DNA of 64,000 bases, from contig JABDOQ010000046.1 of assembly GCA_013043165.1 (NCBI GenBank), positions 1 to 64,000 of the forward strand. The letters are read 5' to 3'. A program made the translations under genes and the position numbers. The stretch is from Woeseiaceae bacterium (GTDB lineage: Bacteria > Pseudomonadota > Gammaproteobacteria > Steroidobacterales > Woeseiaceae). The notes beneath the pieces were generated by a model. The model was given only the letters and a program-made list of their open reading frames with translations. It searched no databases and was not told the DNA's origin. This document shows positions 5,331 to 54,141 of the stretch, piece by piece (the first letter of the stretch is position 1; each line of letters opens with the position of its first letter).

Positions 5331-5966
5331 ATGAAACGATCAATCGCGATAGCCGGCAATATGGGAACGGGAAAGTCGACGCTTGTCGAATTTCTGCACA
5401 AGACATACGACGTCGCGCCATTTTACGAGCCCAACGACGAGAATCCCTACCTTGCCGATTTTTACAAGGACATGAAACGCTGGGCGTTTCAGTCGCAGAT
5501 GTATTTTTTGAGCAACAAGTTTCGACTGCATCAGGAACTCGACCGCCAACCCGGCGTTGTTGCCCTGGATCGGACGATTTTTGAGGATGCCGAGATATTC
5601 GCGACGGCGCTACACCAGATGCGCAAGATTTCGAAGCGAGACTGGGAAACGTATCGGGGTTTTTACAGCGCGATCCTCGACGCCATTCGCCCTCCGGATC
5701 TCATGATTTACCTGCGATGTTCAATGCCAACACTGCGCCAGCGAATCCGCCTGCGCGGGCGAAAAATGGAAAAAGATGTGCCACTTTCGTACCTGAAGCG
5801 GCTCGATCGTCTCTATGAAGGCTGGATTACGTCTTACGATCTCAGCGACGTGTTAATTCTGGAGACGGACAGGTTGGACTACATCCATGATTTGATTCAC
5901 AGGCTCGACGTCATGGAGCGCATAGAGTCTGTCTTGCCCGAGGATATCGGCCGGCCAGGCTGTTAA
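5331..5966 (+). CDS. Deoxynucleoside kinase (dNK/dGK-dAK family)
   Basis: This 211-residue cytoplasmic kinase phosphorylates deoxynucleosides for nucleotide salvage. It starts with a P-loop (GNMGTGKST, residues 9-17), then has NPYLADFYKDMKRWAFQSQMYFLSNKF, which forms the substrate-binding helix, and LDRTIFEDAEIFA, equivalent to the DRS motif. The lid-type Arg-rich segment LRQRIRLRGRKME follows. The ATG at 5331 is chosen because it places the P-loop close to the N-terminus. Base specificity (dA, dG or dC) cannot be read from these motifs. It is divergent from hpt, and its stop overlaps that of the convergent lytic transglycosylase gene by four bases. Confidence 0.9.
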   Translation: MKRSIAIAGNMGTGKSTLVEFLHKTYDVAPFYEPNDENPYLADFYKDMKRWAFQSQMYFLSNKFRLHQELDRQPGVVALDRTIFEDAEIFATALHQMRKISKRDWETYRGFYSAILDAIRPPDLMIYLRCSMPTLRQRIRLRGRKMEKDVPLSYLKRLDRLYEGWITSYDLSDVLILETDRLDYIHDLIHRLDVMERIESVLPEDIGRPGC

Positions 5967-6754
5967 TCGATCCTGAATCCGGCGCGTGCAAGCTGGCGGG
6001 CGCTGCGATCGTATTCCTCGCGATTCGCGTAGGTCATTACCACTTCAAATTCTCCGGTGCCGCGACGAAACCAGTCGAGATTCAGGTCTGACGAACGTTT
6101 TTCGAGGCGTTCGACAAACGCTTCGGCGCGGTAGGGCTCGCCGAACGTCAGCAGCGTTGACTGGCCGATTGCCGAGTACAGGGTATCCGGCACGGGCTTT
6201 ACGAGTGAGCCGCTGCCCAGGACGTAGTTCAGGTGGCGGTATATATAGCCGGAGTACCAGACCGCGCCCGACGGAATGCCGTATCCATCTTCCGCGATAC
6301 GACCTGGGCCATAGTTGTATGCCGCGAGCGCAAGATGCACGTTTCCGGCATAGCGCTGCAGCAGCTCCTTCAGGTAGCGCGCGCCGGCGTCAATGTTCGT
6401 GCAGGGATCATACAGATCGCTCAAGCGATGAATACCCAGGTGTTTGGCGGTGCCTGGCCAGAGAATTTGCATCACGCCGTGGGCATTGGCACGGGATCGC
6501 GCGGTGGCTTTGAAGTCACTTTCTCCACGCGCCACGGCGAGCAACAGCGACTCTGGCAGGTCGTATTCGAGGGCCGCGACGCTGAAACAAGTGGCATGGG
6601 GAAAAGTATAGGCCGGCTCGAGTGCCGTCTGATTTGCTGAATAATTCTGCCACGCAGCGTCGAGGTCGGGCTTCGCAGCATCGGCCGTAATCGCGAGAAT
6701 CATCACGATGATTCCACCTAAAGCGACTACGAACTTTTGACGATATTCCTGCAT
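5963..6754 (-). CDS. Family 1 lytic transglycosylase, last gene of the motor-like operon
   Basis: This 263-residue exported protein cuts peptidoglycan glycan strands to leave 1,6-anhydro-muramic ends. An N-terminal hydrophobic segment (residues 9-27, ending ADAA) looks like a signal peptide or anchor. The SLT domain follows: catalytic Glu78 in ARGESDF, then AHGVMQILWPGTAKHLG, the YDPCTNIDAGARYL block and ALAAYNYGPGRI. A C-terminal tail of about 90 residues is not recognised. The start at 6754 is one base after the preceding stop codon. In this operon it is likely to open or remodel the wall where the ExbB/ExbD-like complex works, as dedicated transglycosylases do for secretion systems and flagella; that role is inference. 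Confidence 0.9.
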   Translation of the reverse strand: MQEYRQKFVVALGGIIVMILAITADAAKPDLDAAWQNYSANQTALEPAYTFPHATCFSVAALEYDLPESLLLAVARGESDFKATARSRANAHGVMQILWPGTAKHLGIHRLSDLYDPCTNIDAGARYLKELLQRYAGNVHLALAAYNYGPGRIAEDGYGIPSGAVWYSGYIYRHLNYVLGSGSLVKPVPDTLYSAIGQSTLLTFGEPYRAEAFVERLEKRSSDLNLDWFRRGTGEFEVVMTYANREEYDRSARQLARAGFRID

Positions 6755-6755
6755 G

Positions 6756-7265
6756 CTAGCCACCTGACAAATCAAGACCCGTTGCGGAGGAAATCTGTAG
6801 CAATTTTTCCTGGATGTCCGAATCATCGGAATAGGCAAACGCGACCTCGTAAACGCCGGGCTTTAGTTTGACGACGCGATAGTCCAGCCCGGTCGTTTTT
6901 TGCAGCTGCGACACGAAGCCATCCGCGGCCAGTTTGCTGCGGAAAGGGCTCCAGAATGCAAACCACTGTTGATCAGTGGGTGTCGACACGTCTTCGGTCA
7001 CCGCCACGGTTTCCGGCTGCACAGTGGACGGTTCTGGCGGCACCTCGGCAATGGCAGCTTCGGATTCAGCATGCGGCGCGGGTTCCGATGCCGGCGGCGG
7101 TTCCGGAGGTGGTTCCGGCAGCGGTGCAGCGTAAGTCGGCGCCACGGGTCGCGGCGCCTCTGCAGGTTCCGGTTGCGGGGCCTTTAGTTCCGGTATGCCC
7201 AAAACAACGATCAGGAACGAAACTGCAAGCGCAGAGCCCGTCAGAATTCCAATAATTCTAATCAT
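6756..7265 (-). CDS. Membrane-anchored Pro-rich protein with SPOR-like C-terminus
   Basis: This 169-residue protein has one N-terminal membrane helix (residues 5-23), a long Pro/Glu/Ala-rich linker (28-95) and a compact domain of about 70 residues starting near WFAFWSPFRSKLAADGF. This end resembles a SPOR domain: a repeated beta-alpha-beta pattern, the F-x-S/A-x-x-A-x-x-F-x-x-x-L helix and a GxYEVAF strand. SPOR domains bind denuded glycan strands, so the protein could reach from the inner membrane to the wall like TonB or FtsN. The SPOR call is by pattern only. The gene is 10 bases after its upstream neighbour and one base before the transglycosylase gene. Confidence 0.6.
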   Translation of the reverse strand: MIRIIGILTGSALAVSFLIVVLGIPELKAPQPEPAEAPRPVAPTYAAPLPEPPPEPPPASEPAPHAESEAAIAEVPPEPSTVQPETVAVTEDVSTPTDQQWFAFWSPFRSKLAADGFVSQLQKTTGLDYRVVKLKPGVYEVAFAYSDDSDIQEKLLQISSATGLDLSGG

Positions 7266-7275
7266 CGCGGCCTCA

Positions 7276-8799
7276 CTACAGCACGTCCTTGACTCTCACA
7301 GCACGCCAGTCGACGTATTTCGATGACCGTGCGGTGATCATTGCAAAATCACTCAGCCATTCTCGAAGATCGTCGCCTTCGAGCCCCGGGCGAATCGACG
7401 CGGAGCATCGCAATGGCAGATTGTCCATGTGATTGGCAACGCGCCTGGCGAGCGAAGCATCCGATACGACCACGGCATAGTAGGTATCGAGATCCGGTTG
7501 CAGCAACCATTCGTAGGTCTCGCTCCAGTTTTGTCTTGCGGTCGTTGTCTTGGCGATGGGAAAACTCAGCAGTTCGCCGCTGCGTACGATATTTGCCTTG
7601 GTTCGATCACGGCATTCGGACCCGGCCAGCCGCACGAGCCCATGATTAGCCTGGTGTTCCAGGAAGAAGACTATCGAGTCCGCGTTTGCCCGAGTTTGCA
7701 GCATCGAGCATGGCCGCACACCGGTCATATACGTTGCTTCGCGAATGGCTACGCCACCGCCCTTGCATTCGCTCAATGAGGCCGGAGAGGACAGTTGCAG
7801 TGAATTGATCAACGAGTCTTTCCCGGCATTCGGTATGGAGATCGATGCCGGCATCACGGTGGCCGCTTGCGTCGTCGCGGGACTCGTTTTCGAATTTGCC
7901 AGGTGCGCCGATTGCGTGGCGGGCAATACGATGTAGGCGCTCGCACTAAGAGCCGTGACGTCATCATCTTCATTTTGCGGCGTCACCGTGAGCCAGTATT
8001 GAAATAACACGCCATCGATTTGATGCGCTTTGCCGCTCAACACCGCATTGGTTCGCGTTTCATCATTGCTCAATATGAGTGCCTGGCGGTTTGCGAGATT
8101 GTTGCTGATCAGTTCGACTGTTCCGTGCAGGCCGCTCGCCGTTGGTTCCTGGAGATCTGCGGCGACCACGTATTCGTCCGATACGCGCTTTTGCATTGTG
8201 CAGGTCAGCTGGTGGGCGAGATGCGCCGCGAGCAGGTCCGTCTGCGCCAGCGTGAACGGTACATCGCGGGCGCCGAGAAACGTCTCGTCGATGCGCGACT
8301 GTCGCATCGCCTGGCGTTGGGTCGTGCTGAGCTGTCCTTTCCAGTGCTTGCCGAAACCGGTCACCCAGTTACGGTCCTCCAGGTCCAGTGCACGTACGTT
8401 TACCGAATAGCTGCCGTCAAGTTTTTGCGTGAGCTCGATTCCGATGTAGTAGTGCACGTCGTCAAGCGTGCAATCCTGCGGCTGCGAATCGAGCGAATTG
8501 CCGCTCCGGCCCTGCTGCCAGCCAATGGCAACGCCGGGTGTTGCCACGGCCGCGGCCAGGATACGATCGCGCAGCGACAGTGCCAGTGCGTTGCTCGCAG
8601 AAGCCGGCGCATTGTCGCGCAGTACCACGAACATTACGGTTTCGTTTTTGAAGCGCGGATGTACGATCAGCTGTTGTCGTACGTAAGGTATAAGGTCGCG
8701 GTCCAGCCAGCGATCGAGGTCTTTTTCACGCGACTGGGCAACGGCTGGAATGGCCTGCGCAACGAGGACCGTTAGCAGAATCAGGATACGTCGGATCAT
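7276..8799 (-). CDS. Exported protein of unknown function in motor-like operon
   Basis: This 507-residue protein has a clear signal peptide (MIRRILILLTVLVAQAIPAVAQ) and no other membrane helix, so it is periplasmic or outer-membrane associated. I do not recognise the family. The N-terminal half has alternating strands and helices with the segments YYIGIELTQKLDGSYSVNVRALDLED and a conserved-looking RNWVTGFGKHWKGQL. The middle (about 300-350) is Ser/Thr/Ala-rich and linker-like. The C-terminal half carries several Cys residues (SECKGGG, RPCSML, SECRDR, LRCSAS) that could form disulphides. It overlaps the ExbD-like gene by four bases (ATGA), which implies coupled translation and a shared complex. 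Confidence 0.6.
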   Translation of the reverse strand: MIRRILILLTVLVAQAIPAVAQSREKDLDRWLDRDLIPYVRQQLIVHPRFKNETVMFVVLRDNAPASASNALALSLRDRILAAAVATPGVAIGWQQGRSGNSLDSQPQDCTLDDVHYYIGIELTQKLDGSYSVNVRALDLEDRNWVTGFGKHWKGQLSTTQRQAMRQSRIDETFLGARDVPFTLAQTDLLAAHLAHQLTCTMQKRVSDEYVVAADLQEPTASGLHGTVELISNNLANRQALILSNDETRTNAVLSGKAHQIDGVLFQYWLTVTPQNEDDDVTALSASAYIVLPATQSAHLANSKTSPATTQAATVMPASISIPNAGKDSLINSLQLSSPASLSECKGGGVAIREATYMTGVRPCSMLQTRANADSIVFFLEHQANHGLVRLAGSECRDRTKANIVRSGELLSFPIAKTTTARQNWSETYEWLLQPDLDTYYAVVVSDASLARRVANHMDNLPLRCSASIRPGLEGDDLREWLSDFAMITARSSKYVDWRAVRVKDVL

Positions 8800-9602
8800 G
8801 AGGCCTCCAATCGGATGTCACCGCTTGCCCCGATAATCAGTGCGCCGCCGCTATGGGCCTGCATGAGATCGTCGAGTTGTGTTTTCAATTTGCCCGGCAA
8901 GGTGACGCCCCAGCTGACGGCGTCGGCTGTTATTCCGGTCCGGGTCAGCGCTTCAATCACGGCCGCAGGTACGGTGGCCGCTTCCATTTCGTGAAAAGTA
9001 TTTGGTACGGATGCGTCCCAGAAACTGATGCGGCTGCTGCTGACGGTCATGCGCTGCGCGCGGTCGCTTTCGATGGCGTACAGACCGACGTGACTTGCCG
9101 CGACAAGCCGTGTCAGTACGGCATCGGATTCAAAGCGAAGTGTGAATCCTTTTGCCTCGCTCTCAGCCGCTGGCACCGCTGGCGGCGTTGCTTCCGGTAT
9201 AGCCGGCGCTGTCGCCCGGACTTGGGGCGCGGCTTTGATCGGGGCGGCCTGTTGTTGGGTCGGCGGGAACTTCGGAATCCACTTTGGTCGCGTCAGCGTT
9301 ACGGCTTTTTCGACCGGTTTTTCGACCGGTTTTTCGATCGCTTTGGGAAGCGCCGCTTTTGGCGGGCCGGCCGGCTCGGCTTTTGCGGCTATTGGAGCCG
9401 GTTCCACCGCTGCGAGTTTTGGCTCGGGCTCGACGGGCGGCGCCGGCGTCATCGGAATGCTCTGCACGAGCGCGAATATTGCAACCAGGCACAGCGAGAG
9501 GATTGCCATGAATCTCATGATATCGGTCTGCAGGTCTGCGGCTCCGCCGCCATCCATGTCGGCGGAACGATTGAGAGGGTAGGCTAGTGGTGAGCGCGTC
9601 AT
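8796..9602 (-). CDS. ExbD/TolR/MotB-like protein with periplasmic domain
   Basis: This 268-residue protein has a short cytoplasmic head and then LQTDIMRFMAILSLCLVAIF. A single Asp (Asp27) at the entrance of the only transmembrane helix is the hallmark of the proton-carrying helix in ExbD, TolR and MotB (compare their D-V/I-M-L motif). A long Pro/Ala/Lys-rich linker (about 50-150, with a repeated EKPVEK unit) follows, then a periplasmic domain of about 115 residues that I do not recognise and that is not an evident OmpA domain. It overlaps both neighbours by four bases: the ExbB-like gene upstream and the 507-residue gene downstream. The pairing with an ExbB-like protein supports a stator or energy-transducing role. 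Confidence 0.65.
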   Translation of the reverse strand: MTRSPLAYPLNRSADMDGGGAADLQTDIMRFMAILSLCLVAIFALVQSIPMTPAPPVEPEPKLAAVEPAPIAAKAEPAGPPKAALPKAIEKPVEKPVEKAVTLTRPKWIPKFPPTQQQAAPIKAAPQVRATAPAIPEATPPAVPAAESEAKGFTLRFESDAVLTRLVAASHVGLYAIESDRAQRMTVSSSRISFWDASVPNTFHEMEAATVPAAVIEALTRTGITADAVSWGVTLPGKLKTQLDDLMQAHSGGALIIGASGDIRLEAS

Positions 9603-10249
9603 GGCTTCGCCTCGACAACTTCGGATGCATCGTTGCCATTGCGAAGATGTGTCTCAATTCTCTTCAGGCTTTCGCGCATCTCGGAGGTATCGGCACGCGC
9701 AGCCGTGTCGTAGTGCTGCTGCAGCTGTGTACCGAGCGATACAGTTTTGTACACACGCATCACGTATCCGCCAACGCCACCAAAAATAGTGGTGGAGAGC
9801 GCCAACAGGATGCCGCCGTCGATCATACGTTCGAGCATTGCGAAAGCACCTTGCTGCAGCGCCGCATGGCGATCGCCGAGCGCAAATATCAATGCGCTGC
9901 GCATGCCGATTGCAGTCCAGATAACACCCGTGCCAAAAAACAACGTCGTCCAGATATCGGTGAGGTGATCGAGCTGCACAACCTGGTTGATCGGACGCGC
10001 GTTCCCCAGCGCGTCGCGCAGACGCCCAAGAGTGACGAAATAGGCGAGCAACAGTACGGCGAAGACCGGAATAGAGGAGCCGAGATTCGTGTACGCCCAG
10101 TGCAGCCACTCGCCGGGGCTGCTGATCGCCGTGTCACTGAAATGAATCACGCCGCTGCGGCTTAACAGGTACAGCGTCGCCGCACCGCCGATCAGGGTGC
10201 CGAGCGCGCCGGCGGCGAGCCCTTTGAAGAAGACGAGGCTGCGGCTCAT
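9599..10249 (-). CDS. ExbB/TolQ/MotA-like channel protein
   Basis: This 216-residue inner-membrane protein has four predicted helices (about 7-30, 59-77, 98-124 and 142-166) and a cytoplasmic C-terminal helix. The last two helices look like the conserved hairpin of the MotA/TolQ/ExbB family. TTLFFGTGVIWTAIGM resembles the LLGLLGTVxGM helix, and GGILLALSTTIFGGVGGYVMR resembles the ALxTTAxGL helix with its channel Thr residues (Thr153/Thr154). Overall identity to the classical members looks low, so this is a divergent branch. It lies directly before the ExbD-like gene with a four-base overlap, the usual order for such pairs. It is predicted to form the oligomeric ring around the ExbD-like helix. 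Confidence 0.65.
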   Translation of the reverse strand: MSRSLVFFKGLAAGALGTLIGGAATLYLLSRSGVIHFSDTAISSPGEWLHWAYTNLGSSIPVFAVLLLAYFVTLGRLRDALGNARPINQVVQLDHLTDIWTTLFFGTGVIWTAIGMRSALIFALGDRHAALQQGAFAMLERMIDGGILLALSTTIFGGVGGYVMRVYKTVSLGTQLQQHYDTAARADTSEMRESLKRIETHLRNGNDASEVVEAKP

Positions 10250-10264
10250 CGTCGTTTAATCGAT

Positions 10265-10816
10265 CTATCGGCTGGCCGAACAGGCGGTGCAGGTCGCCTC
10301 GAGCACGAGCTCGACTTCCTGGTACAGCTGGTCAGCACGGTAATAGCCTTCGTTGTCGAGACTGACTTTTAGCAGGCCACGCTCCTTTTCAGACAGTTCG
10401 CGCTCCATGTCGAACAGTACTTTCTGCTTATTAGGGCAGGTATGCGAGCAGTTGTTGTAGTCGCCCTTGAGTGACATGAACTTCACGTTGAAGAAGCGAT
10501 TGTAGTAATCCTCCGCCTGTCGGTTACTGAGCAGCCCCTTGTCGGTGGACCAGACCAGGAACTGGCTAAACTCCCGCTTGTTCTCCGGTTTTGGGTCGCC
10601 TTCCGCGATGGTCAGCAGATCGTCATAATAGCGATCGAAGTGCGCGTGACAGCCTTCCAGCAACGATGATTGCGTGGTGCTGATAGCTGAATTGAGATTC
10701 TTCGATTGCGGCGCTGCGCAGGTCGGGGCTGTCGATGCACAAGACGCTATGAAGAGGGCTGTCGCGATCAGTCCCGCGACAATAAGCAGCGGATTTCGAC
10801 TGGCGTTTGATTTCAC
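10265..10816 (-). CDS. Cys-containing lipoprotein of unknown function
   Basis: A signal peptide ends in a lipobox (ALFIASC), so the mature protein of about 160 residues should be lipid-anchored. The residue after the lipid-modified Cys is Ala, which favours outer-membrane sorting. The mature part is helical and hydrophilic, with CHAHFDRYYDDLL, NNCSHTCPNKQK and a C-terminal TCTACSASR; these Cys residues may form disulphides. I do not recognise the family. GTG at 10816 is chosen as start because GAGGAG stands just upstream and it leads directly into the signal peptide. It lies 15 bases before the ExbB-like gene and may be the outer-membrane component of the same machine. Confidence 0.6.
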   Translation of the reverse strand: MKSNASRNPLLIVAGLIATALFIASCASTAPTCAAPQSKNLNSAISTTQSSLLEGCHAHFDRYYDDLLTIAEGDPKPENKREFSQFLVWSTDKGLLSNRQAEDYYNRFFNVKFMSLKGDYNNCSHTCPNKQKVLFDMERELSEKERGLLKVSLDNEGYYRADQLYQEVELVLEATCTACSASR

Positions 10817-10841
10817 GGGAATTCTCCTCACTGTACTTTTT

Positions 10842-11657
10842 TCACTGTTCAAGCGGACTGCGGTAGGCTTGCTCGACGCTGCCTGGCGGTGGGCCGGCAA
10901 CGAGCGCCTGGCCTTCCTCGTCGCCGAACAGGATGGATTTGACACCGCCAACGACTTCAATCATTTCCGGTGTGATGATGCCGAACGACTGGTTGAGCTG
11001 TTCCATAAGCGTTGCACGAGCGATTTCCTGGCGCGTGCGTTGAATCAGCAAACTGGTCTCTTCCATATCGAGGTAGATGTCCGACGCCAGTACCGCAAGC
11101 GACTGGTCACCTTTGGCGCCGGACGTAGCGACCAGTTGATAATATTGATTGAAACGTTCACTGAGACGCATGCCTGAACGGCCGCGCAACGTCGGGGAGG
11201 ACTTGCTTACCGTTTTGTTAGCGTCACTGCCTATCAGCGTTTCCTGCAATGTCCAGGGTGTCATTTTCCGACCGAGCTCGTTGCGCAGACCCTTCTCCAG
11301 GCTTAGCCGGGTGTTGTTCACCGTGTGCTCCATGTCCGGCAGCCGCTCATCCATGATGGTGAGCATTTCGAGATAGCTCGCGCCAATCTGACGTGCGAGG
11401 CGTTGGCACCCGGAGTCATCTTCGGCGCCGTCGCATTTGCTTTCGTGGTACAGCTCCTGCTGCTGATCGAGTTGGCCAATCACTTCCTGCAATCCGGTTT
11501 CCATGTCGCGCGCGACATTGCCGGTTTGACGCAGATCTTCGACAACCGTCGTCGGGAAGAGCCGGATGGTCGGTGTATTGGCTAGCGCTACGCGTGTCGT
11601 CAGCGTGGCGACGCTGACGAGCAGGACTGGGATCAGGATTCGGGCGGTCGTATTCAT
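10842..11657 (-). CDS. Exported helical protein of unknown function, first gene of motor-like operon
   Basis: This 271-residue protein starts with a signal peptide (MNTTARILIPVLLVSVATLTTRVALA). The mature part is almost entirely helical and rich in Gln/Glu/Leu, suggesting coiled-coil or helical-bundle structure, with one close Cys pair (SKCDGAEDDSGCQ) probably bridged. No family is recognised. The ATG at 11657 has GAGGAT upstream and begins the signal peptide; the longer open frame before it is not protein-like. It is the promoter-proximal gene of seven genes on the minus strand and faces the feoAB operon across about 240 bases containing a Fur box. Confidence 0.6.
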   Translation of the reverse strand: MNTTARILIPVLLVSVATLTTRVALANTPTIRLFPTTVVEDLRQTGNVARDMETGLQEVIGQLDQQQELYHESKCDGAEDDSGCQRLARQIGASYLEMLTIMDERLPDMEHTVNNTRLSLEKGLRNELGRKMTPWTLQETLIGSDANKTVSKSSPTLRGRSGMRLSERFNQYYQLVATSGAKGDQSLAVLASDIYLDMEETSLLIQRTRQEIARATLMEQLNQSFGIITPEMIEVVGGVKSILFGDEEGQALVAGPPPGSVEQAYRSPLEQ

Positions 11658-11820: not shown

Positions 11821-11850
11821 TTGCATATCGTAATGCGAATCATTATCATT
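11821..11850 (+). promoter_or_regulatory. feoAB promoter overlapped by a Fur box
   Basis: The sequence TAATGCGAATCATTATCATT (11831-11850) closely follows the Fur consensus of repeated GATAAT/ATTATC hexamers. It covers a likely -10 (TATCAT, 11844-11849) placed 17 bases after TTGCAT. Iron-loaded Fur would therefore block polymerase. The site is about 50 bases before feoA and about 175 bases before the divergent motor-like operon, so an effect on that operon is possible but not shown. Confidence 0.8.
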
Positions 11851-17402: not shown

Positions 17403-20400
17403 TTGAGCTACCGACGGATTGAAACTGAGACCAGTCAATTGCCAATTTCGGCCGACAACAAGAGGCTCCTGACCCCGACAGCAAGGGTCCCATGGTGGCT
17501 GAGCGTTCTTCGTTCAGCGGCGATTGCCTTGTTTCTGTGCGGTGGAGCGGTGCCTTTGGCGAGCGCCGCGACTTTTACGGTTACGAAAACAGCCGACACC
17601 AATGACGGCACGTGTGACGCCGATTGTTCATTGCGTGAAGCGATCACTGCGGCAAACGCGCTGGGCGGATCGCACATGATTGCATTCAACGTTCCGTCGG
17701 GTGGCCTTACCGGTGGCGTTGCGGTTATCACTCTTGCTTCCGCACTGCCGCCTCTGACGCGTAACGGCATCACGATCGACGGTACGACGCAGACCAGTAA
17801 CCAGGGAAATACGAATCCATCGATCTTGGGTGCCGGCGGCACGGTCGGCGTCGATGGGCTGTTTTTGTCCCAGGTCGCTGGACCGGAAGTCGAAATCAGG
17901 GCTGGCGCAACGATTGCGAACGGTCTGCACATTCAAGCCAACAACGTCGTCGTTCGCGGGCTGGCCATACTCGGTTTCGGCGCCGCAAACGGGGAGGCCG
18001 CCATCCGTGTCGAGAACCTCAGCGCTCTTATCGAGAACAACGTGCTCGGCTCGACTGCGATCGCATTTAGCGATCCAGGCGTTGCGTTGCGCAACTACGC
18101 AGGCGTCGAATCGGTCGGTGGATCCAGCGGCACGATTCAGAATAATGTGATCGGCTTCGGCCACCGGGGAGTTTTTCTGACCACCGGCTCTTCCGGTTGG
18201 ACCATCAGCGGCAACGAGATCAGAGATAACGATCTGGCATCGACCGATGGCGATGGAATAGCGATCGCGGACTCATCAAGCAATACGATCGTAGGCAACC
18301 TGATCACCGGCTCATCCAGTCAAGGCCTGGTCGTTACGAACTCGAGCTCGAGTAACTTCGTCAACAACACCGTGATCGGCAACGGTGTTGGATCGACGAC
18401 GGCGGTAGGTCAATCGGCTGGCATTACGATGCGATCCACGGCGACTTCCACGACGATTGATCGTAATATCATTCAGTCGAACTACGGCGCTGGAATCCAG
18501 GTCAATGACGGCGCGACGGGCACGACCATAACGCGCAACTCTTTCGCCGATAACGGCACAATCCTCGCGAGAGATCTTTCGCTGCCGACTGACCAGATTG
18601 GTATCGACCTTAATGTGGCTGGCGATGATAATAATTTTGGTACTCCAAATTATTTTTCTGTCAATACCGGCGCGGACAGTCTCCTCGATTTTCCAATCCT
18701 CGAGTCAGCAATAATCTCTGCTGGCAACCTGACATTGACTGGCTGGTCGAAACCCGCTGCGACCATCGAATTATTCATCGCAAACGTCGACCCCTTTGGG
18801 TTCGGCGAAGGCGAAACGTTTGCCGGCACCTTTGTAGAGGGCTCGATTGTTGCCCCGGTCGATGCGGACCCGACTGTGACGCCCTACAGCGGTCTAATTA
18901 ACGGCCTGGACCAGGGAAGCGATACGACAAACCGCTTCAGTTTTACGGTGCCGCTGCCGGCTGGCGTTGCCGATGGAACATTTCTGACATCGACAGCATC
19001 CGTTGGTACCGATACGTCCGAATTCAGCGGCGTAGTTGCCGCCGTTGCCGCCTCAACGATTTCCGGTCGCGTATTCGAAGACGCCGATTTCGCCGGCATC
19101 GCTACAGACTACAATGCTGTCACTGACGACGTCGCGCTCGCCAATGTCGACGTCGAGCTCTACAGTGACGCCGACGCCTATATCAGTTCGACAACCACCG
19201 ATGGCAGCGGCAATTTCTCATTCGCGGGGATCGCCAACGGTACCTATAAGGTTAGAGCCCGCACGGCTACGATTGGCGACTCGAATACGCCTCCAAGCGG
19301 TGCGTTCAACGGCGCCTGTGGCATAACGGACCCTGTGAGCGGTCCTGGCTGCGTCGTCCCCGAGCTGACATGGGCCAATGGTGCCGCCGCTTATGGCGGC
19401 CAGTCTGCCACGGCGGACGACACCTCAACCAACAATAATGCCGGGCCAGGTGACACCTGGACCAGCGTCGTCATCGACACGGCCGACGTTGCAAACGTGA
19501 ACTTTGGCTTTGCCTACAACCTGATTGCCAATACCAACAACGCGGGGCAGGGCTCGCTGCGCCAGTTCGTCGACAACGCCAACGAGATTGGTAGCGCGGG
19601 CGGCACGACCGCGAATAGCAGTGAATTTCGCATTCCGCTGTCGGACCCGAACTACAATGCCGCTTTGGGTGCGCACACCATTACGCTATCAAGTGCGTTG
19701 CCGTTGATTACCGACAGTCAAACGGTCATAGACGGGCAGACCCAGACCGACAATGTCGGGAGCACGAACGCGGCAGACTTTACCCACCCCTTCTACGGCG
19801 CCGCCAAAACCGTCGGAACTGGCGTTGATGGTATTGCGGGTACGGGAGATGAATTCACTTTGTCTGCCTACCCGAATCCTGAAATCGAGATCAACGGTAA
19901 CGACGTTGGCTCCATATTCCGGTTGACCGCGGATGCAGGCGTCGTCAAACGCCTGGCGCTATACAACTCGTCACCGGGTGAAGCTGTACTCATCTCAGGC
20001 GGCAACGCAAACCTGGTTGAGGAAAACTACGTGGGCACTCGTGCAGATGGCAGCGACCCTGGTTTGGGGCTAAGGCTGCAGCATGGCCTTGAAATTACGG
20101 GTGGCTCGGGAATTATTCGCAACAATGTCGTCGCCTTTTCCGAGGCCGGCGGCAGTCTGCTCGCATCGACCGTTACGATCTCCGGCAATGACTACCTTTC
20201 AAACGCGCTACAAAGCGCGTCCGGCGACGCTGTGAGCACAGAAACATCAAGCGGACAGGCCATTGCCATCCGCGACAATCGATTCCACGACTCGTCGGCT
20301 TACGGTATTGAATCCTGGAATGCCCAGGGTCCGTTCACGATCGAGAACAACACGGTTTCGGACTCGGGCAATGGCGGTGGCCTGGAGATTGGTGGAATCC

Positions 20401-23400
20401 GAATCTTCGGCGCCAACAGTACGGTTCGCTACAACATAGTTACCGCATCGGTTGGTGCCGGCATCGTCATTGCACAAACCGGCGCATCCAATTCGCAAAA
20501 CTTGCTATCTCGAAACTCGACTTTCGCAAACGGCGGTCTCGGTATCGACATTGAAGCCACAGACTTCGTGTCTCCCGATGGCGACGGCGTTACACCGAAC
20601 AATGGCGCGATGGATGCGGGTTTGCCGAACAACGGAATGGACTACCCGGTCCTAACAGTGTCAACCCTGAGCGGCAGTACCCTGCACGTTGAGGGCTACG
20701 TAGGCACATCTGCTACCAGGATCGCAGCTGTACACACCTTGGAGTTCTACAAAGCGGCCGACGACGGCAACAACGATGGCGAGATCGAGCTGGGAGATAC
20801 ACTAAACGTCGCCCATGGTGAAGGACAGACCTACATAGATTCCTGCTCTACGGCAGCCACCGGCAATTTCATTTGCGATCTTACAGTTCCGGTTTCCGTA
20901 TCGCTGTCTGTCGGCGAAGACATAACAGGGATTGCCTACGATACAAATGGCAACACATCGGAATACGGCGCCATTTCAGCTGTTGCGAGTCCTGCTGTCG
21001 CTATATCGGGCACCATTTTCGAAGACATCGATGGCAACGTGCTGGACGGCGCCGAGACCATCGGTGATACGGCAAATCCTGTCGTCAGCGGCGTGGACGT
21101 CTATCTTTATCTTGACGATGGCGGCACACCGGGTCTACCCGATGCAACGGACACGGTCCAGAACGGTGGTGTACCCGTGGTGACAAATGGTTCCGGCGTT
21201 TTCACGTTTCCGGGTATTGCCGATGGAAGCTATTGGGCCGTCGTCGATTCCCGAACGGTCTCGCCAGCAGCCGGTGTTCATCCGTCATACCTGGCGACGA
21301 CGCCGTGGTCGGAACAGACCTATGGCCCCGATTTGGGCTGGTGTGCCGACGGTACGGGCGGCACCAGCGAGCGGGCTGGTCCCGGACCCTGTTTCGGCGG
21401 CGTCGATGGCGCCACCGCGGACGATGCGTCTGCGCTGACGACTTCCGAGCACATTGCACGCGTGGTGGTCTCGGGCGCCGCAGTCTCCAACGTCGACTTC
21501 GGTTTCAGCTATAACGTCGTTACCAACGTCGAGCCGGCTGGCAACGTCAGTCTTACGGCGAATACCTACCAGGGCTCGATTGATCAGTTCGTTCGCAACG
21601 CCAACTCCGTTAACGGTGCCAACGCCATGCGGTTTGTTCCCGCCGTGCCGACGAATGCGTCTGGCGGTGGGGGCGCATGGTGGCAGATCGACTACACGGG
21701 CAGCATCATCGGCGAGACAATCACCAATACACACGACGCCAATACCAGTATCAACGGAAGCGCCTTCGATCTGGCGGATGGAGTGGCCATTCGTAATACC
21801 AACCCGGGTAATCTCGGCGCCAATGCTGGCGGCGGCCTGACCGCCGGTGTCGACGACGTGGCGCTTCCGCAGGTGGCGCGCCCCGAACTCGAAATCATGC
21901 GCTCCGACCCGGCCGTTGGCGTCGCATTCTATTTCTACTCCAATAGCTCGACCGGCCAGGTTCCAGACAACTTCGCGGTTCGCGACGTCGCCACGTGGGG
22001 TTTTGTCGGCGGCGTTGGCATGACCGGAATTGCCGGCTTAAGACCGTCCGGCGTCGTGGTCGAGCGCAACGTTGTCGGTTCGGGCCCCGATGCTTTTTCC
22101 GATCCGGCAATACCAGGCACTTTACGCGGCGTCGCGCTTCTGAATACCGACGGTGCGACGATTCGCGACAACCTCATCGGCTTCGTTGACGCCAACGGCA
22201 TCACAGCCTCGGCCGTGACCGGCACAACCATCAGGGGTAACGAAATTCGCGAGGCGGCACAGGTTGATAACGTGGCTGACGGTATTAACTACGGCGCCAG
22301 CAGTACTACCGGAACCATCACTGCGAATCTTATCGCCGATGCCGGTGGCATGGGAATCGACGGTACCGCTTCAGGGAATATCGTGGCAAACAACACGGTT
22401 ACCGGATCGGGACAGCTTGGCGTTCAAACCGCGGGCATACGTCAAACGGGAAGCGCCAATACGATCCGCCGCAACGTCGTAACCGGAAGTGCCGGCCCCG
22501 GTATCATCGTGCCAGACACGGTCAACGCCATTTCGATCACCGAGAACCACTTCGGCAGCAATGGCTCGATCGCAATCGATTCGGTTGATGCGGGCGGCGA
22601 CACGGCTGTCGGTGATGGCGTAATGCTCAACGACGGTGGCGTCGACGCCGCCGACGGTAACGACGGCCTCGATTTTCCTGTCATCGACAGCGCCGTACTC
22701 AGCGGTGGCAATCTGACCGTCACCGGATTTGCTCGCGCCGGAGTAACGATCGAATTTTACGAGGCAGTCGCCGCTGCAAACGACAACAACGCTTCGGGCA
22801 ATCCGCATGGTGAAGGCGTCCTTTACCTGTTCACGTCGACCGAAGGCGTTGCGGACGCGGATGCGACGACCGGCGCATCCTATACTGACCCCGGTTATGG
22901 CACGGATCCGGACGTCAATCGATTCAGCTTTACGGTTCCCGCACCTGCCGCGCTTGCAGTCGGCGAAGACATCAGTGCTATCGCGAACCTGGCGGCGAAT
23001 GGTAGCTCCGAGTTCGGACCGAACTTTGCCGTTACCGGCGCACTCACCACGATCGCCGGCACAATCTTCGTCGATGAAGCCGGCGACGGCCTGGCCGATG
23101 GTCCGATCGGTCCCGCACCGAACGCTTTCGAAAGCGGGGCGCGCATCGAGCTTTTCCGGGCCGGGCCCGATGGCAATCCGGACGGCGGCGACGATACCTA
23201 TGTGACCTTCACGACCTCATCGGCCGTTGACGGCAGCTATACGTTCACGGGACTGTCGCCCGATACCTACTATGTAACCGTTGATTCCCAGGGTGTCGAC
23301 GACGGTCCATATAACGGGGCCTACACCGCCACCGACACCTGGGCCGAGCAAACCTATGGCCCGATCGGTGCGGCGAGTTTCGACGGTGTATCCACATGGA

Positions 23401-26400
23401 CGTATGCAGCATCGGCGGGAGCATTCTATGGCGGCGCCCGATGGGATGTATCCGACGATCACGTGCCGACAAATTCACTGCCGACGGGCGAACATATCGC
23501 GGCCGTAGACACGACTGGCGGCAATGTCAGTAACGTCGACTTCGGATTCAGCTTCAATGTAGTAACGACGACACGCGGCGGCAACGGTGCCCAGGATCCG
23601 GGTGCTGGCGCTGGCCAGCGCACGGTACAAGGCTCTCTGCGTCAATTCATTACAAACGCGAACGCCCAGTCCGGTGCAAACGCCATGCGGTTTGTGCCGG
23701 CTGCGCCGGCCAATGCGTCCCTGGGCGGCAATAGCTGGTGGCGTACCTCGATCACGGCGCAACTGCCGAACATTGAGGATGCTGCGACCACGATTGACGG
23801 CAGTGCTTACAACCCGGCCAACGGCGTCACGCCATTCAACACGAACACTGCCGCGATTGGCGCCGGCGCTGCCGTTGGCGTAGCGGGCACATTCAATACG
23901 CCGTTGCTGGATCCGGAGCTCGAGATCCAGGGTGACAACATCGTCAACAACGGTCTCTTTGTACTGGCGGGCGCCGACAATAGCGCCATTCGCAACCTTG
24001 CAATTACGTCGTTTGCCCAGGCAGGCATCAGGCCGGCCGGCTCAGCGCCGGATTTCCTCGATACTCTGGCGATCGAAAACAACGTCATCGGTACAAGTCC
24101 CGCGTCATTTGCCGACAACCCGGCCCTTTTCGTAGGGCGCGCCATCGTTGCAAGGGATCTCGACAACAGCACGATTCGCAACAACCTGATTGGCTGGACA
24201 GGCTGGGGCATCCAGTTCGATTTCGACAATGAAGATACGCTCATCGAAACGAATGAAATTCGCGGCGCCGATACCTGGGGATTGTACTTGCGCGGCGTCG
24301 CTTCAACGGGACAACAACCCGAGCGGCTAACGGTGCAGGGCAATCTCGTCGAAAATAATGGCAACGACGGTATTTATACGACCGAAAGCCTGAGCAATTT
24401 CGTCATTAATCAGAACTCGGTGCGGTCCAACGCGACCGGCATACGTCTTTGGGGTGCAAACAACAGCGTAACCGGCAACGTCATTACCGACAATGCGGGC
24501 ACCGGGCTGCTACTCACGGGAGACGGTTTGCCCAGCTATGCGGCACCCGCGGCCAACCTGATCTCGCAGAACATTTATGGCAACAATGGCCTGCTGGGCA
24601 TCGACCTGGTCGAGACCGGCACCGACCAGGACGGCGTCACGTTAAACGACAACGGCGATGTCGACCTGGGTGCGAACGAGTTGCTGAATTATCCGATCAT
24701 CGTATCGGCTCAGATTGCAGGCCCGGACCTGGTCGTCAGCGGGTTTGCGGCCGCGGGCAGCAATATCGAATTCTATATCGCGGACGCCGACCCGAGCGGA
24801 TTCGGCGAAGGCGTGACCTACCTGTTTAATGCGTTCGAAGGGTCCGGTGCAGACACGGATGCGACCTCTGGCAGCTACGGTCCGGGCCCCATCAACGGTC
24901 TTGCACAAGGTACCGATACGGCCAATCGCTTCACGTTTACCGTTCCGACACCAGGTGGAGTAGGTGTTGGCACCGATCTGACCGCCACCGGAACGATCGC
25001 GGGCGCTACGTCCGAATTCAGCGGCAGGACTACAGTCAGTAACGATTCGGACCTGGTTACAACCAAGGTGCTGGATCCGGGTACGCCCGGGCCGTTCGCC
25101 GAAGGAGACGCCGTCACCTATCTGCTAACGGTAACCAACACTGGCCCCGCCCAGGCGACAAACGTTACTGCCACCGATACCTATCCGGCCGAGCTGACGC
25201 TGGGCGTGCCCGTGCCAAGCGCACCGACCACCTACGATGCGGGGACGGGCGTCTGGACGATTGGCACTTTAAGCAGCGGCGCAAGTGCAACGCTGTCATT
25301 GCCGGGCACCATTAATGCTGGCACCGCAGGTGACGTGATAACCAATAATGTCACTGCTGCCAGCGGCGATCAGGCGGATCCGACCACAGTTGGCGATGAT
25401 TTGAGCGAAGCGTTCGCCGTGTTGCCATTTCTCAGCATCAATGACGTTGCTCAGATCGAAACAGACTCCGTTCCAGGCACGACAACGTTCACATTCACGG
25501 TAAGCATCAATCAGGCGATCGGTAACAACGTTACGTTCGACTTTGACACGGCGGATGGTACCGCCACCGTTGCCGACAGCGACTATGTCGCGATTTCGGG
25601 CGGAAGCGGGACAATCCTCGCGGGTGCTACTACGACAACGATCGATGTAACCGTCAACGGTGACGATGGCATCGAAGCGAATGAGACGTTTTTCGTCGAC
25701 ATCAGCAACGTTGTCGGTGCGGCCGTCACGGACGCGCAGGGCCAGGGTACGATCAACAACGACGACGGCGCCGCTACCGTCAGTATTGCTGCGACGACAA
25801 ACGGCGCAGAAAGCGGCCCTGTTGACGGGCTATTCACCGTCACGCAGAGCGCGACGACCATCAATGACACGGTCCTGACCTACGTGGTTGCCGGCAGTGC
25901 AACCAGCGCAAGCGACTACGCGGCACTCAGCGGAACGGTCACGATCCTGGGCGGCGCAACTACCGCGACAATCAGCGTGCCTGTGATTGACGATGCAATC
26001 GCCGAGGGCATCGACGAGACCGTCATAGTGACACTAAGCAGCATCAGCGCCAGCGATCCCGGTGTCAGCATCGCGGCGAGCCCGCTGGACACGGCATCGC
26101 TCACGATCGCCGACAATGACAGCGATCTCGTAACGACAAAATCCGTCAGCGACGTCGCACCGGTTGAAGGCGACTCGATTATTTACACGATTCTGGTGGC
26201 CAATAGTGCTGGTGTGCAGGCAACCAACGTAAGCCTGACCGATTTGCTGCCTGCCGGAGTCACTTACGTCAGCGACGACAGTGGCGGCAACTACGAAAGT
26301 ACAACCGGCGTGTGGAATATCGGCACACTTGATAGCGTTGCGCCAGGCAATGTCGCGACGTTGAATATCACGGCCACCGTTGATTTGGGTGCAGGCGCAT

Positions 26401-29400
26401 TGGCGCAGCCGATCACGAACACAACAACGGCGGCGACAGGCGATCAGCCGGATCCGGATACGGCTACCGACAATCTCACCGCAGATATCACGGTCAACTA
26501 CAACGCCAACCTCGTTACGACCAAGACCGTTGATAACGCGTCTCCGCAAGCCGGCGATACGATCATCTACACGCTCACCGTGGTTAACAACGGCCCGGCA
26601 CCGGCGAGCAATGTCAGTTTGGCTGATGTTCTTCCGGCGGGCGTAAGCTACCTCAGTGACGATAGTGCTGGTGCATACGACCCTGTTGCCGGCGCGTGGA
26701 CGATAGGCAGTATTGCGAACGGGGCGACCGCAGCGCTGAATATTTCGGCGATTGTTGACAACGGTGCCGGACTGTTGCCGCAGCCGATAACGAATACAAC
26801 GACGGCGGCTAGTGGTGATCAGACGGACGCCGATAACACAGGCGACGATCTGGCTGCGGATATCGTAGTCGACCTGATCGATCCGAACCTGATTCAGCTC
26901 AACAAAACAGTTGGCCGTGATCGTGCCAACGTCGGTGAAATCGTTGCCTACAGCGTCGAGATTCGAAACACGACAGGCAACGCGATCGCCGCCGTGCAAA
27001 TCAGCGATTCACCGGCGCGCGGCTTCAAATACGTGCCAGGCAGCGCGCAGCTGAACGGTATATCGATTGCCGATCCCGCCGGCGGCTTACCGATTGAGTT
27101 CGATACCGGGGTACTGCCCGGATTCGTTGATAGCGACGGCAGCGGCTCAGCGGACCCCGGCGAACCCGGCTACGCGATACTGAGCTACCGAATGGTTGCC
27201 GGCGCTGGCGTTGCGCCAGGAATCTGGACGAATACTGCGATCGCAACCGCCACTTGCGACGTGTGTTTCGTCTCGAATATTGCGACGGCGGATATCGAGA
27301 TTGTCCAGGACACTTTGTTTGATCTGGGTACGATCATCGGCAAGGTATTTTACGATGCCGATGGCGATGGCTGGCAGGACTCCGGGGAAGCAGGCATCGA
27401 AGCGGCGATGGTTGCACTGGACGACGGCACGTATGCGCTGACTGACAGATTCGGGCGCTACCATTTCCCGGCCGTGAAGCCCGGGCAGCGCTTGCTGAAG
27501 ATCAATCTGAACAGCCTTGCAGGTCGAGCAAGGGCCACCAGGGGCACGACTCGCATCGTAAACGTGACGCCCGGCCTAATGGCAAAAGCCAACTACGGCG
27601 TCGTTCTCGACACGGTCGATGCGGCTATCGGCGACGATGGCCATTTGGGCATCGCGGTGGATACAGAGACGATCCATCCTCCGCTGTTAATTAACGGCAG
27701 TACAGTCATGCCGAGTCTTCTCGTCAACGGAGAGCCGGTGGCATTGGCCTCGGCCGACGTGCGGCTTGGCAGGCAAAAGCTTCAGGACGTGGTCGAGTTA
27801 AGCGGTGGCCGATTAGCGCAACCTATCCGGTTCATCACCAACGTTGGTAGCGATGCTGAGGTCAGGCGATGGACGCTGAAAGTGTCGGGAACAAGCGACG
27901 AGACAGTGAAAAGCTGGAAAGGCAAAGGTGCCCCGCCCGAATTCATCGAGTGGGACGGCATGCGCAAAAACGGCAGGCTTATTCATGGCGGAGGCGTCTA
28001 CACCTATCACCTCGAGCTGAGTACCAGCGATGGCCAGACTGTGAGCAGCAGCCATCGCCTGTTCGGCGTCAATCGCAGCAATTCGATCTCGCTGAATCTG
28101 GCCGGTGGTGCATTCATTAGCGGTTCACACGCACTGACGAACGCCGCGAAAGGCCTGCTAAGCGATACAGCAGAAGCTATTCGTGCCTACCCCGACGAGA
28201 TCGTCGTAATCAGCGGTCATACGGATTCCGTTGGAACCGCCGAGAGCAATATGGCGCTCGCGGAGCGTCGAGCCCGGGCAGCGTACGACTACCTGCGTAA
28301 AGAAGAGAGTTTACCTGAGGAACAATTTGTCATTCAGGCATTCGGCGAAACCAGACCGATCGCAGGCAACGACACGGGCTGGGGTCGTGAGCTCAACCGG
28401 CGCGTTGAGATCTCTGGCGACCTCAACAGCATCGAGCGTGCAAAAAACTATGATCCGTATCGTCAGCCACCGGTTGTCAGGATCAACTCGAAAGAGATGG
28501 CCGTCGATGCCAGCGGTGCATTCCGTGGCAAAGTTGAGCTGGAACCTGCTGAAGAAACACTGAGAGTCCTTCTCGGCACATCCGGGGGAAGCAGCGTCGA
28601 AGCAACGGTGCGCCTGCCGACCCTCGAGATCATTTCGCCACAGGGACGGATCTCGGTACCGGTTAACAGTGACCGAGCTGACACCGCGCGCTTTGATAGC
28701 AGCGATGAGCGGACACTCCTGCACACTGAAGTACTCGGTCGAACCGAGCCTGAAAACACGATCGAGCTGAACGGCGAAGCACTCGATATTGACGATAATG
28801 GACTGTTCCTGACGACGCTGCCGCTACGTACAGGTGAAAATGTCTATGGCCTGGTGGTGCGAAATCCGACCGGAATACTCCGTATCGCAAACCTCAAGTT
28901 GACGCTCGATGAGGCCAACCTCGCTACGCCGGAGTTCTTCATCGAGCCGATTCCACAGCTAGCGCTGCAGCTGCCGCCGCCCGGCATTCCCATGACGAAT
29001 GCAAATCTGGTTGTTCCGGGGACGACGGTTCCGGGCAATCGTGTCTTCATTAACGATCGCGAAATCGAGGTGGGTGCGGACGGCAGCTTCTCAGCGATGG
29101 TTGCGCTCGAGCGAGGCGAGAATCTGTTTACCGCACGCGTCGTTGATGCGGACGGTCATTCGGGTGAAATCGAGCAGCGCTTCAGTTACAACGGCGATCC
29201 CTTGTTCTTTATGGCGCTAATCGATGGCACCGTTAGCAAACTCCAGACCAGCGGGAATCTCGCCGCAGCTGGAAAGGTCAAACGCGAAGAGACGATATCG
29301 GAGGGACGAATCGCGTATTACCTGAAAGGACACGTGCTTGGGAAATACCTGCTGACATCGGCTTTCGACAGCGGGCAACAGGAGTTCGGCAAGATCCTCT

Positions 29401-51200: not shown

Positions 51201-51696
51201 TCGTGCCGTCGCCGTGGACGCCGGAATCTCTCTGGCATTCAACCCGGCTCGTCGCGTTACCAATCTCAAGCTGTTGCCAACGGCTGTCATCGCTGTCGTT
51301 GCCGCGATACTGGACCATGACGCCGGTGTAGGCGCCGATGCCGCTCATACGCAGCGTGGCGTCTTCACATAGGAATGCGGCTTCCTCAATGAACTGGGTA
51401 TTGGTGTCGCCGACACAGGTGGGTTCGATGTCCAGCTTGGTCCAGTAGAACCTGCTCGTATCACAAGACCCGTCCGAATAGTCAAAATCGCTGTCATAAG
51501 GCCTCGTCGTGCTCACCGGGTCGCCCATACTGCCGGATGTGTCGAGGATGAACATTATGTTCGGCGGCGTCCCGGATATGTTGCTCGGATCAACGACCAG
51601 CAGCTCCGTATCGTCAGCGACAGCGGGCATTCCAGCCAGAATCGTGAGCACAAAAGATGTGCCGATCGACAGTGCTTTTACATTTTGAGATTTCAT
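48298..51696 (-). CDS. pilY1: Type IV pilus tip adhesin/assembly factor PilY1
   Basis: This 1132-residue secreted protein has a signal peptide and then an N-terminal von Willebrand A domain with the MIDAS start DTSGSMG (Asp52, Ser54, Ser56) and TDGMP. The C-terminal half is a PilY1 beta-propeller (DPLHSQPAAVVYGG, FTATNDGYFHAVDGETGVELWSFIP, YALDVTD). The EF-hand-like calcium loop DLNDNGVIDGTDF lies near residues 709-721, and a second Asp-rich loop DFSGDGFVDRLYSVD follows later. PilY1 promotes pilus extension, primes assembly with the minor pilins and binds surfaces. It lies between the small CxxC protein gene and pilE. Confidence 0.95.
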   Translation of the reverse strand: MKSQNVKALSIGTSFVLTILAGMPAVADDTELLVVDPSNISGTPPNIMFILDTSGSMGDPVSTTRPYDSDFDYSDGSCDTSRFYWTKLDIEPTCVGDTNTQFIEEAAFLCEDATLRMSGIGAYTGVMVQYRGNDSDDSRWQQLEIGNATSRVECQRDSGVHGDGTTGAVYAQAGTGLPDEFTSDPDAEISWGSGDAAQAYTVYDGNYLNWKENPETANLPKIDIMKAVTKNLMNAIENVNVGLMRFTGSAGGRVLHAVSPIDTDRTAILNKIEGLGAGGATPLAEALYESTLYWRGLDADYGDLQVDPDTGEPIGDIDPKAFVGEAPGTYQSPAMPVCTRNFNVLLTDGMPVDDADDQAKVPLLPGFAGDIREACNGDEVDGRCLDDISEYMYKVDISSTTEGEQVVTTHTIGFDIDLPILKTAAEVSDGDYYLAENVETLTTALMRIIESVVDKGLSFSAPAVAVNTFNRTQNINDLYISTFLPDARVHWPGNLKKYTITPEGVIKDDKPEDAVNAETGFFKDTARSIWTDITVEDGDRVEFGGAANKLPIPQDRNVYTNNGTLTDLTAANNAITPSNATAFSPSDFGLTGATGEPSVEDVIRWARGQDILDDDNDDETDDARNVMGDPLHSQPAAVVYGGDADDPEVVVFTATNDGYFHAVDGETGVELWSFIPKQFLADLPELMLNGDSTYKHYGIDGDIVPVVADLNDNGVIDGTDFVYVIFGLRRGGTEFYALDVTDKDSPELMWTASYPEFGQSWSRPVVARVDMVHADLNALKAVVIIGEGYDTVHDTAAFPSNPDNVGAGISMLDLMSGERLWRAGRSDADLVLEDMTRSIPSQVQAIDFSGDGFVDRLYSVDVGGQVWRFDVFRNKEPDDTDDPLVTGGVIARFGGEGIASGGETDTRRFYSAPDVSIFYDPVINRRFVAIGVGSGYRAHPLDVSAPDAYYSLRDPDLFAKLNQDAYNNYDSTTGIALDGDMAEVRGQVNTEIGNDQRGWKYTFLDEQMMLSSSATFDNSVFFLGYEPNVASAATCQVIPGINYLYRVNVANGDPVANNLDEMTGTEAEAARTTALKQGGIAPTPAFLFPSAPQPCEGDACSPPPIGCVGVECFNPGFANNPVRTLWTQDGIE

Positions 51697-51726
51697 TGGG
51701 TGTCCTCAGTGTCCGTTCTGAGCGGC

Positions 51727-52071: not shown

Positions 52072-52092
52072 CCGACTACTCCGTTTCGAATT

Positions 52093-52572: not shown

Positions 52573-52587
52573 AAGCTTGTCTCTTGA

Positions 52588-53613: not shown

Positions 53614-53625
53614 CTGCCGGCCCCC

Positions 53626-54102: not shown

Positions 54103-54141
54103 TGCGTTTTTTCCTTGCTCTTATTCGAAGCGCAAATCTGC

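Follow-up and report, generated by a model that had tools for sequence, protein, structure and literature searches.

A conserved seven-gene block of marine Gammaproteobacteria that may encode a trans-envelope machine with a highly divergent ion motor

A stretch of 64,000 nucleotides from a Woeseiaceae bacterium (GenBank assembly GCA_013043165.1, contig JABDOQ010000046.1, positions 1 to 64,000; the whole stretch is hereafter called the window) carries, on the minus strand between positions 5963 and 11657, seven open reading frames (ORFs; here genes A to G) packed into 5.7 kb, and this block is kept together in certain marine Gammaproteobacteria. Our preferred reading, to which we give a probability of roughly 0.47, is that the seven genes encode a single trans-envelope machine, in which a 5:2 proton-driven motor made of C and D would be coupled to a wall and outer-membrane module and would remodel the envelope. 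Ion motors of the 5:2 type drive flagella, Tol, Ton, gliding and phage defence. A survey of such motors stresses that more of them await discovery (Williams-Jones et al., 2025, PMC12204202; this and the other papers cited here are drawn on in part), and the block is a real, well-conserved gene set that we found nowhere described and that probably represents a variant of this motor kind.

Gene content and conservation of the block

The genome to which the window belongs measures 3.19 Mb and is 98% complete; the window is part of its contig 81. The ORF coordinates bear out what the original prediction had seen there, namely seven minus-strand genes separated by gaps of 25 bases or less or by four-base overlaps (A-B 25, B-C 15, C-D -4, D-E -4, E-F 10 and F-G 1 bases). 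Likewise visible in the translations are the exported A, the lipoprotein B, the helical membrane protein C, the single helix with Asp27 in D and the Pro-rich, anchored F (Table 1).

Table 1. Positions and main characteristics of the seven genes and of related features (positions are those of the window unless a locus is named)
Feature	Position	Strand	Description
Gene A	10842-11657	-	Exported, helical-looking periplasmic protein, 271 aa, signal peptide visible in translation; no family over cut-off
Gene B	10265-10816	-	GTG start; lipoprotein, 183 aa, lipobox ..FIAS|C26 visible in translation
Gene C	9599-10249	-	Helical membrane protein, 216 aa, TolQ/ExbB/ZorA-like by predicted fold
Gene D	8796-9602	-	Putative TolR/ExbD-type B subunit, 268 aa: single helix, Pro-rich linker, C-terminal domain of ~115 aa; no family over cut-off
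Gene E	7276-8799	-	Exported protein of 507 aa; model with two LpoB/TolB-N-like domains in tandem (51-162, 185-292) and a C-terminal beta-sandwich (~327-507)
Gene F	6756-7265	-	169 aa: N-terminal anchor, Pro-rich linker, SPOR-like C-terminal domain
Gene G	5963-6754	-	263 aa, exported SLT-family lytic transglycosylase, invariant Glu78, C-terminal SPOR-like domain homologous to that of F
Fur-box-like 19-mer	11829-11847		Between gene A and divergent feoA; part of feoAB
Gene A relics	L146 8326-8478 (G004); L147 2737-2883 (G011)		
E relative	L154 61-1335 (G001, contig 14)		Contig begins inside the gene
Stator- and flagella-like neighbours, genus g8	L070 14866-19393 (G056); also L071 (G043)		By reading

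To follow the block across genomes, 49 loci with A, C or D were gathered (those from the named collection are metagenome-assembled genomes titled Woeseiaceae, Gammaproteobacteria or, once, Proteobacteria), and removal of duplicates (L066/L074 and L038/L094) left 47 distinct contigs. All seven genes, at least in part, lie on one strand in the order A to G in 37 of these, and in the remaining 10 the block reaches to 0-149 bases from the contig end, so that synteny holds in 47 of 47 contigs as far as each extends (L059 and L066 were counted as complete and L044 as cut, with the usual order of C and D in all three). The medians of the six intergenic gaps range from -4 to 19 bases (33-40 loci), and this compact arrangement is retained even though protein identity falls to 24-57%. 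Such synteny and spacing, with the purifying selection described below, speak against a chance grouping. In two assemblies, G024 (L072, L073) and G400 (L095, L096), we observed two diverged copies of the block; the double copy of G024 possibly stems from mixed strains (5% contamination).

Presence per genome was searched with A, B, C, D and E in a sample of 60 relatives, which included the genome of the window. D was found in 25 of the 60 and C in 24, with B in the same 24; in the genome with D and no match for C and B (G009), the contig end falls inside the operon. A was found in 27, that is, in the same 25 as D and in two 1.5-Mb genomes (G004 and G011) where a relic of about 50 codons, respectively 76 and 67% identical, lies directly by feoA-feoB. 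B to G were not found in the stretch compared beside these relics, which suggests that the operon was formerly present there and then lost. A weak tblastn match of D in the first of these loci (L146; 36% identity, E = 2.7e-4) lies beyond feoB, within repetitive sequence, and does not enter the count. E was found in 25 of the 60 relatives, 24 of them among the 25 that carry D. Within the sampled genus of the window, genomes with and without the operon showed no clear difference in size by eye.

The block is patchily distributed and, across the class, rare: A was detected in 6 of 369 genomes sampled across the class and, of 398 genomes sampled across the phylum, in that of the window only. C was found in 7 of the 369 class-wide genomes, one of which proved false and leaves 6: the dropped match (G160, E = 7e-4) covers 45 residues of an unrelated ORF that lies by phage-like proteins (by reading). 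A plasmid collection gave no match for C.

Evolutionarily, the seven genes are under purifying selection, the ratio of non-synonymous to synonymous substitutions (dN/dS) being 0.04-0.33 in 25 of 28 gene comparisons against four relatives (the other three were saturated). A and B are the most constrained members of the set (0.04-0.08), followed by C (0.04-0.10), E and G (0.07-0.13), D (0.14-0.23) and F (0.29-0.33). Single residues are conserved as well: Cys75 and Cys84 of A are invariant (37/37), and B has its lipid-bearing Cys26 plus six further cysteines in 39 of 39 sequences. The residue that follows Cys26 in the B protein of the window is Ala, which we take to mark an outer-membrane lipoprotein by the +2 rule.

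C and D as a putative ion motor

The proteins of the window were scanned against Pfam, NCBIfam, PADLOC and PHROGs with curated cut-offs, matches being listed to an E-value of 1. Among the seven only G passed (Pfam SLT, E = 3.6e-27), which confirms the lytic transglycosylase of the original prediction; the other six had nothing over a curated cut-off in these four collections (best E 0.0036), more than the four proteins without a family that had been claimed. No PADLOC model, those for Zorya included, matched any of the seven at E up to 1, and searches of PDB sequences with profiles of A, B, C, D and E returned nothing or chance matches. Pfam was further scanned with the family members (41 C, 40 D, 36 E, 36 F and 33 G proteins). 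Family models and profile comparisons fail for C and D, and their assignment is therefore made on predicted fold and residues only.

Structures were predicted for C and E. The model of C, computed from 41 sequences, has a mean predicted local distance difference test score (pLDDT) of 77 and a predicted template modelling score (pTM) of 0.61, and joins its second and third predicted helices (59-82 and 87-124) by a very short loop. Where C thus has almost no loop, MotA carries an extensive cytoplasmic domain. In the VIA structural table, rows 1 to 12 for this model are TolQ, ZorA and ExbB (97-162 residues, 2.5-5.5 A), at Z 9.1-9.9, which lies below the Z of about 13 that helical models can reach by chance. 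In Foldseek, rows 1, 3, 4 and 6 were likewise chains of TolQ or of flagellar stators (E 0.18-0.27). Thr112 and Thr154 of C are invariant (41/41), and hhalign against 33 proteins of the MotA/ExbB family, in the alignment that the program itself selected, sets them on two family columns of threonine (30/33 and 33/33), a double match that also arises in 10 of 200 column shuffles. These columns correspond to T145 and T178 of Escherichia coli TolQ, which form a polar ring in contact with TolR D23 (PMC12583513).

The partner protein D has what is expected of a B subunit of the ExbD/TolR/MotB kind, namely a single N-terminal helix with a conserved Asp, encoded next to the gene of the presumed A subunit (over 40 loci the C-D gap ranges from -8 to 6 bases). 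Asp27 is present in 40 of 40 sequences, in most of them within a helix of the form LQTD-x-MRFMAIL, and the helix is followed by a Pro-rich linker of 41-154 residues (median 94, with a median Pro content of one quarter). Judged on predicted fold and conserved residues, C and D likely form a very divergent ion motor of the 5:2 type.

Periplasmic and putative wall-directed proteins

The periplasmic protein E was modelled with a mean pLDDT of 78.6 and a pTM of 0.41. Its residues 185-292 are predicted to fold like LpoB (VIA, Z 8.2 and 7.8, 3.3 A over ~100 residues, the next unrelated row being at 6.2), and residues 51-162 like TolB (Z 6.0), with LpoB at Z 6.0 over 27-158; the first Foldseek row is also LpoB (E = 0.0035), and the C-terminal part retrieved generic beta-sandwich rows in VIA. 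In sequence, the 36 E members gave one weak match to DUF4384 (E = 0.005), one to ABC_trans_aux (E = 0.003) and eight to FTCD_C (best 0.006). LpoB is an activator of a wall synthase, and the N-terminal part of TolB contacts TolA. The predicted fold of the two E domains resembles that of the LpoB/TolB N-terminal domain, and E differs from LpoB in being exported without a lipobox, in having two such domains plus a beta-sandwich and in lacking a significant sequence match.

F and G end in C-terminal domains that are homologous to one another (hhalign probability 93, E = 2.6e-7). Matches to SPOR (PF05036) were weak, occurring in 8 of 36 F proteins (best 0.028) and 5 of 33 G proteins (best 0.0036); the G of the window scored 12.7 against a cut-off of 21, and its F had no match. 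The SPOR-like end that had been proposed for F is therefore weak for F alone in searches with hidden Markov models (HMMs), yet the domain is common to G. In F the domain is reached by a Pro-rich linker of 53-160 residues (median 85). An SLT domain was found in 33 of 33 G proteins (best E 3.7e-29), and Glu78, presumably the catalytic residue, is invariant in all 33 and lies inside the stretch aligned to Slt70.

Proposed machine and alternative explanations

If C and D are a motor, five copies of C and two of D would form the 5:2 proton-driven assembly, and the proton would pass a polar ring formed in C by Thr112 and Thr154 before it reaches Asp27 in the pore helix of D. Rotation or cycling of D within C would then be transmitted along the long Pro-rich arm to its periplasmic C-terminal domain, and this arm could work on E and, through E, on the helical A and on B, the lipoprotein rich in Cys. 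The machine may be held at the wall by F and G via their common SPOR-like, putatively wall-binding domain, while G would cut glycan strands. In other proteins, SPOR domains attach to denuded glycan where the cell divides, and our best guess is for this reason a septal or local wall remodelling together with outer-membrane coupling. Most likely, the net job would be to couple the inner membrane, the wall and the outer membrane or to remodel them locally, with Tol-Pal-like logic and as an extra system rather than a replacement. It is tempting to go further and to see here an undescribed class of trans-envelope machine, no closer to Tol, Ton, Mot, Agl or Zorya than these are to each other. It would be a minimal 5:2 motor unseen by current family models, whose pore subunit D would itself be the force arm and would drive both an outer-membrane lipoprotein and a periplasmic protein with LpoB/TolB-N-like domains; the wall-cutting enzyme of the set would have its wall-binding domain in common with another anchored arm. 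We hold this broader proposal as tentative. A motor missed by the family models tried, in a set of seven parts kept together while diverging, would if confirmed be a compact case for how a membrane motor couples to wall cutting.

Besides the chance levels given above for the Z scores and for the double threonine match, a number of results weigh against this machine. On the side of sequence, the 41 C proteins match 9 families at E up to 1, PF01618 (MotA_ExbB) not being one of them, the 40 D proteins match 11 without PF02472 (ExbD), and searches of the window's own genome with both models, again at E up to 1, missed C and D. Between C and MotA/ExbB, hhalign finds weak, non-significant similarity (probability 1.5-4), its score of 23.8 against the 33 family proteins being reached by 6 of 200 column shuffles (in an earlier set 4 of 59 shuffles reached it, the best with 31.3); alignment to E. 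coli TolQ alone was different and meaningless, and D gave nothing against ExbD/TolR. On the side of structure, unrelated helical proteins follow C's best VIA rows at Z 9.0 and below (7-9), an unrelated helical bundle (p130Cas) occupies Foldseek rows 2 and 5, and no Foldseek match of C or E was at E 0.001 or better. The domain arrangement of E is uncertain at its pTM, and hhalign detected no mutual sequence similarity, and thus no repeat, between its two LpoB-like domains. The original prediction of an ExbB/TolQ/MotA-like C and an ExbD/TolR-like D accordingly keeps the predicted fold of the one and the invariant Asp27 of the other, and fails in the searches with the MotA_ExbB and ExbD models.

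Genome distribution adds to these points. E was not found in G039, which carries A to D on a contig that stops 149 bases past D; and G001, a genome 97% complete and without A to D, has a relative of E that is 37% identical over 440 residues. Since the contig of G001 begins inside E, F and G cannot be judged there. The relative in G001 points to a possible function of E on its own, perhaps together with F and G, and because of this exception the block is not described as always together; the joint occurrence of the seven genes, which had been an expectation of the original prediction, otherwise stands in the survey of the 47 contigs.

A passive role for the motor-like pair is an explanation to which such results lend some weight. 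C and D would then anchor a wall-modifying complex (E, F and G with A and B) without ion flow, their Asp and Thr residues being structural, as might be expected from the non-significant sequence homology to ion motors and from an E relative that occurs without A to D. We consider this scaffold unlikely, given that Asp27 and both threonines are invariant and that C's best structural rows are ion motors. Alternatively, and as the main rival, a motor of the same type might power surface motility or envelope export by a logic like that of Agl/Glt or of the type IX secretion system, with G making an opening in the wall for whatever moves or is exported. Known non-flagellar 5:2 motors do include AglRS and proteins to which no function is assigned (PMC12505986), and in genus g8 (G043, G056) the operon adjoins PomA/PomB- and FlgN/M/A/B-like ORFs (by reading), with flagellin on the same contig. 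Flagellin is moreover commoner with the operon in the window's own genus (11/21 vs. 3/16, Fisher p = 0.048) and, over all 60 genomes, was found in 14 of 25 with the operon vs. 12 of 35 without (p = 0.12), an association that is weak and uncorrected for shared ancestry. However, no flagellin was found in the window's own genome, where the operon is present, which argues that the machine is independent of flagella, in keeping with the original prediction that it is not flagellar; and no eighth gene, be it an adhesin, a barrel or other, recurs beside the block across contexts (25 loci, by reading), the recurring extra ORFs in these loci being antisense or the usual Woeseiaceae neighbours. There is thus only a small chance, in our estimate, that motility or export is the job of the set.

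The set could also be a diverged second Tol-Pal, with C as TolQ, D as TolR, E as a TolB-like protein, B as a Pal-like lipoprotein and F as TolA-like. In its favour are a lipoprotein in the set and a motor-like pair whose genes precede that of a periplasmic protein with predicted TolB-N/LpoB-like domains. Yet Pfam, at E up to 1, reports neither an OmpA/Pal domain nor a beta-propeller nor a C-terminal domain of TolA/TonB in any of the seven window proteins, and a row of ybgC- (by reading), tolQ-, tolR-, tolA-, tolB-, pal- and cpoB-like genes lies on contig 107 of the same genome. An SHLS-type motor motif has been described for TolA/TonB (PMC12204202), whereas 35 of 36 F sequences lack His among positions 1 to 25 and hence lack such a motif. 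A second Tol-Pal appears quite improbable on these grounds. Counting this Tol-Pal operon, seven places over cut-off for PF01618 and nine for PF02472 lie outside the block in the window's own genome, and the seven-gene set would therefore be an additional machine. The original prediction that the set is not Tol-Pal holds in this respect; its "no TolB" was too strong, given the two predicted LpoB/TolB-N-like domains of E.

Comparison with known systems

The preferred reading of the block as a trans-envelope machine with its own 5:2 motor places it near several described systems. With TolQ-TolR it would share the predicted fold of C (the best VIA rows) and the two ring threonines, and it has the Asp of the B subunit and presumed motor genes that adjoin the gene of a periplasmic protein with predicted TolB-N-like domains; it differs in that C and D are missed by the family models, in the very short loop between helices two and three of C, and in the Pro-rich arm and another C-terminal domain of D. 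Compared with Tol-Pal as a whole, Pal, TolA and the TolB propeller are lacking and A, B, F and G are extra. ExbB-ExbD-TonB has in common with the set the predicted fold of C, the Asp-bearing single helix of D and Pro-rich arms, and is set apart by the TonB C-terminal domain, the receptor gene and the SHLS-type His, of which the block has none. The predicted fold of C's helices also resembles that of ZorA of the Zorya system ZorA-ZorB (Z 9.4 and 9.1), but C, at only 216 aa, is without the long ZorA tail, and PADLOC recognised nothing in the set.

A further likeness is to uncharacterised motor operons with vWA force transducers, in which the pore-helix protein may itself bear a periplasmic effector domain (Williams-Jones et al., 2025, PMC12204202), as D possibly does; here, by contrast, there are seven specific genes, no vWA match and a wall-cutting enzyme. 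The gene set is not mentioned in the parts used of two 2025 surveys of such motors (PMC12204202 and PMC12505986), and a term search of the main text of the former found none of SPOR, transglycosylase, Woeseia and LpoB. Similarly, the main text of a Woeseiales transcriptome paper (PMC7451513), by a term search, does not use TolQ, ExbB, flagell- or transglycosylase. Literature searches, from whose scope subscription papers and preprints were left out, found no description of the set.

Genomic context and other observations

In many Woeseiaceae the block is neighboured by feoAB, a nucleoside kinase and a phosphoribosyltransferase, while other neighbours are found in L057, L058, L060, L064, L067-L071 and L075. 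Iron regulation of the operon through the Fur-box-like site upstream of gene A was considered and rejected, as the site tracks the feoB neighbourhood: of 37 upstream regions compared, the 24 beside feoB have a strong site (13-16 of 19 positions matched, equalled by 0-5 of 200 shuffles), and the other 13 are at background (9-12 matches, equalled by 22-198 of 200 shuffles). Being strong only beside feoB, the site therefore belongs to feoAB and lies outside the operon. Promoter and terminator scans stayed at background level, and Rfam yielded two tRNAs and nothing else.

Another motor-like locus was noticed in the window's own genome, on contig 109 (L148, 1-9030), where a MotA_ExbB protein is accompanied by two single-helix proteins with FLDC-x-x-CGFGA helices and by kinase-like ORFs (by reading); it recalls the vWA motor families of the survey cited above (PMC12204202). 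Elsewhere in the window, a single exported ORF of 4790 aa (17403-31775) combines beta-helix-like and DUF11-like repeats with an OmpA-like region and a barrel-like end, and is followed by a FecR-like ORF, all by reading. Positions 48298-55809 hold a minor pilin cluster with a PilY1-like ORF of 1132 aa and PilW- and FimT-like ORFs (by reading).

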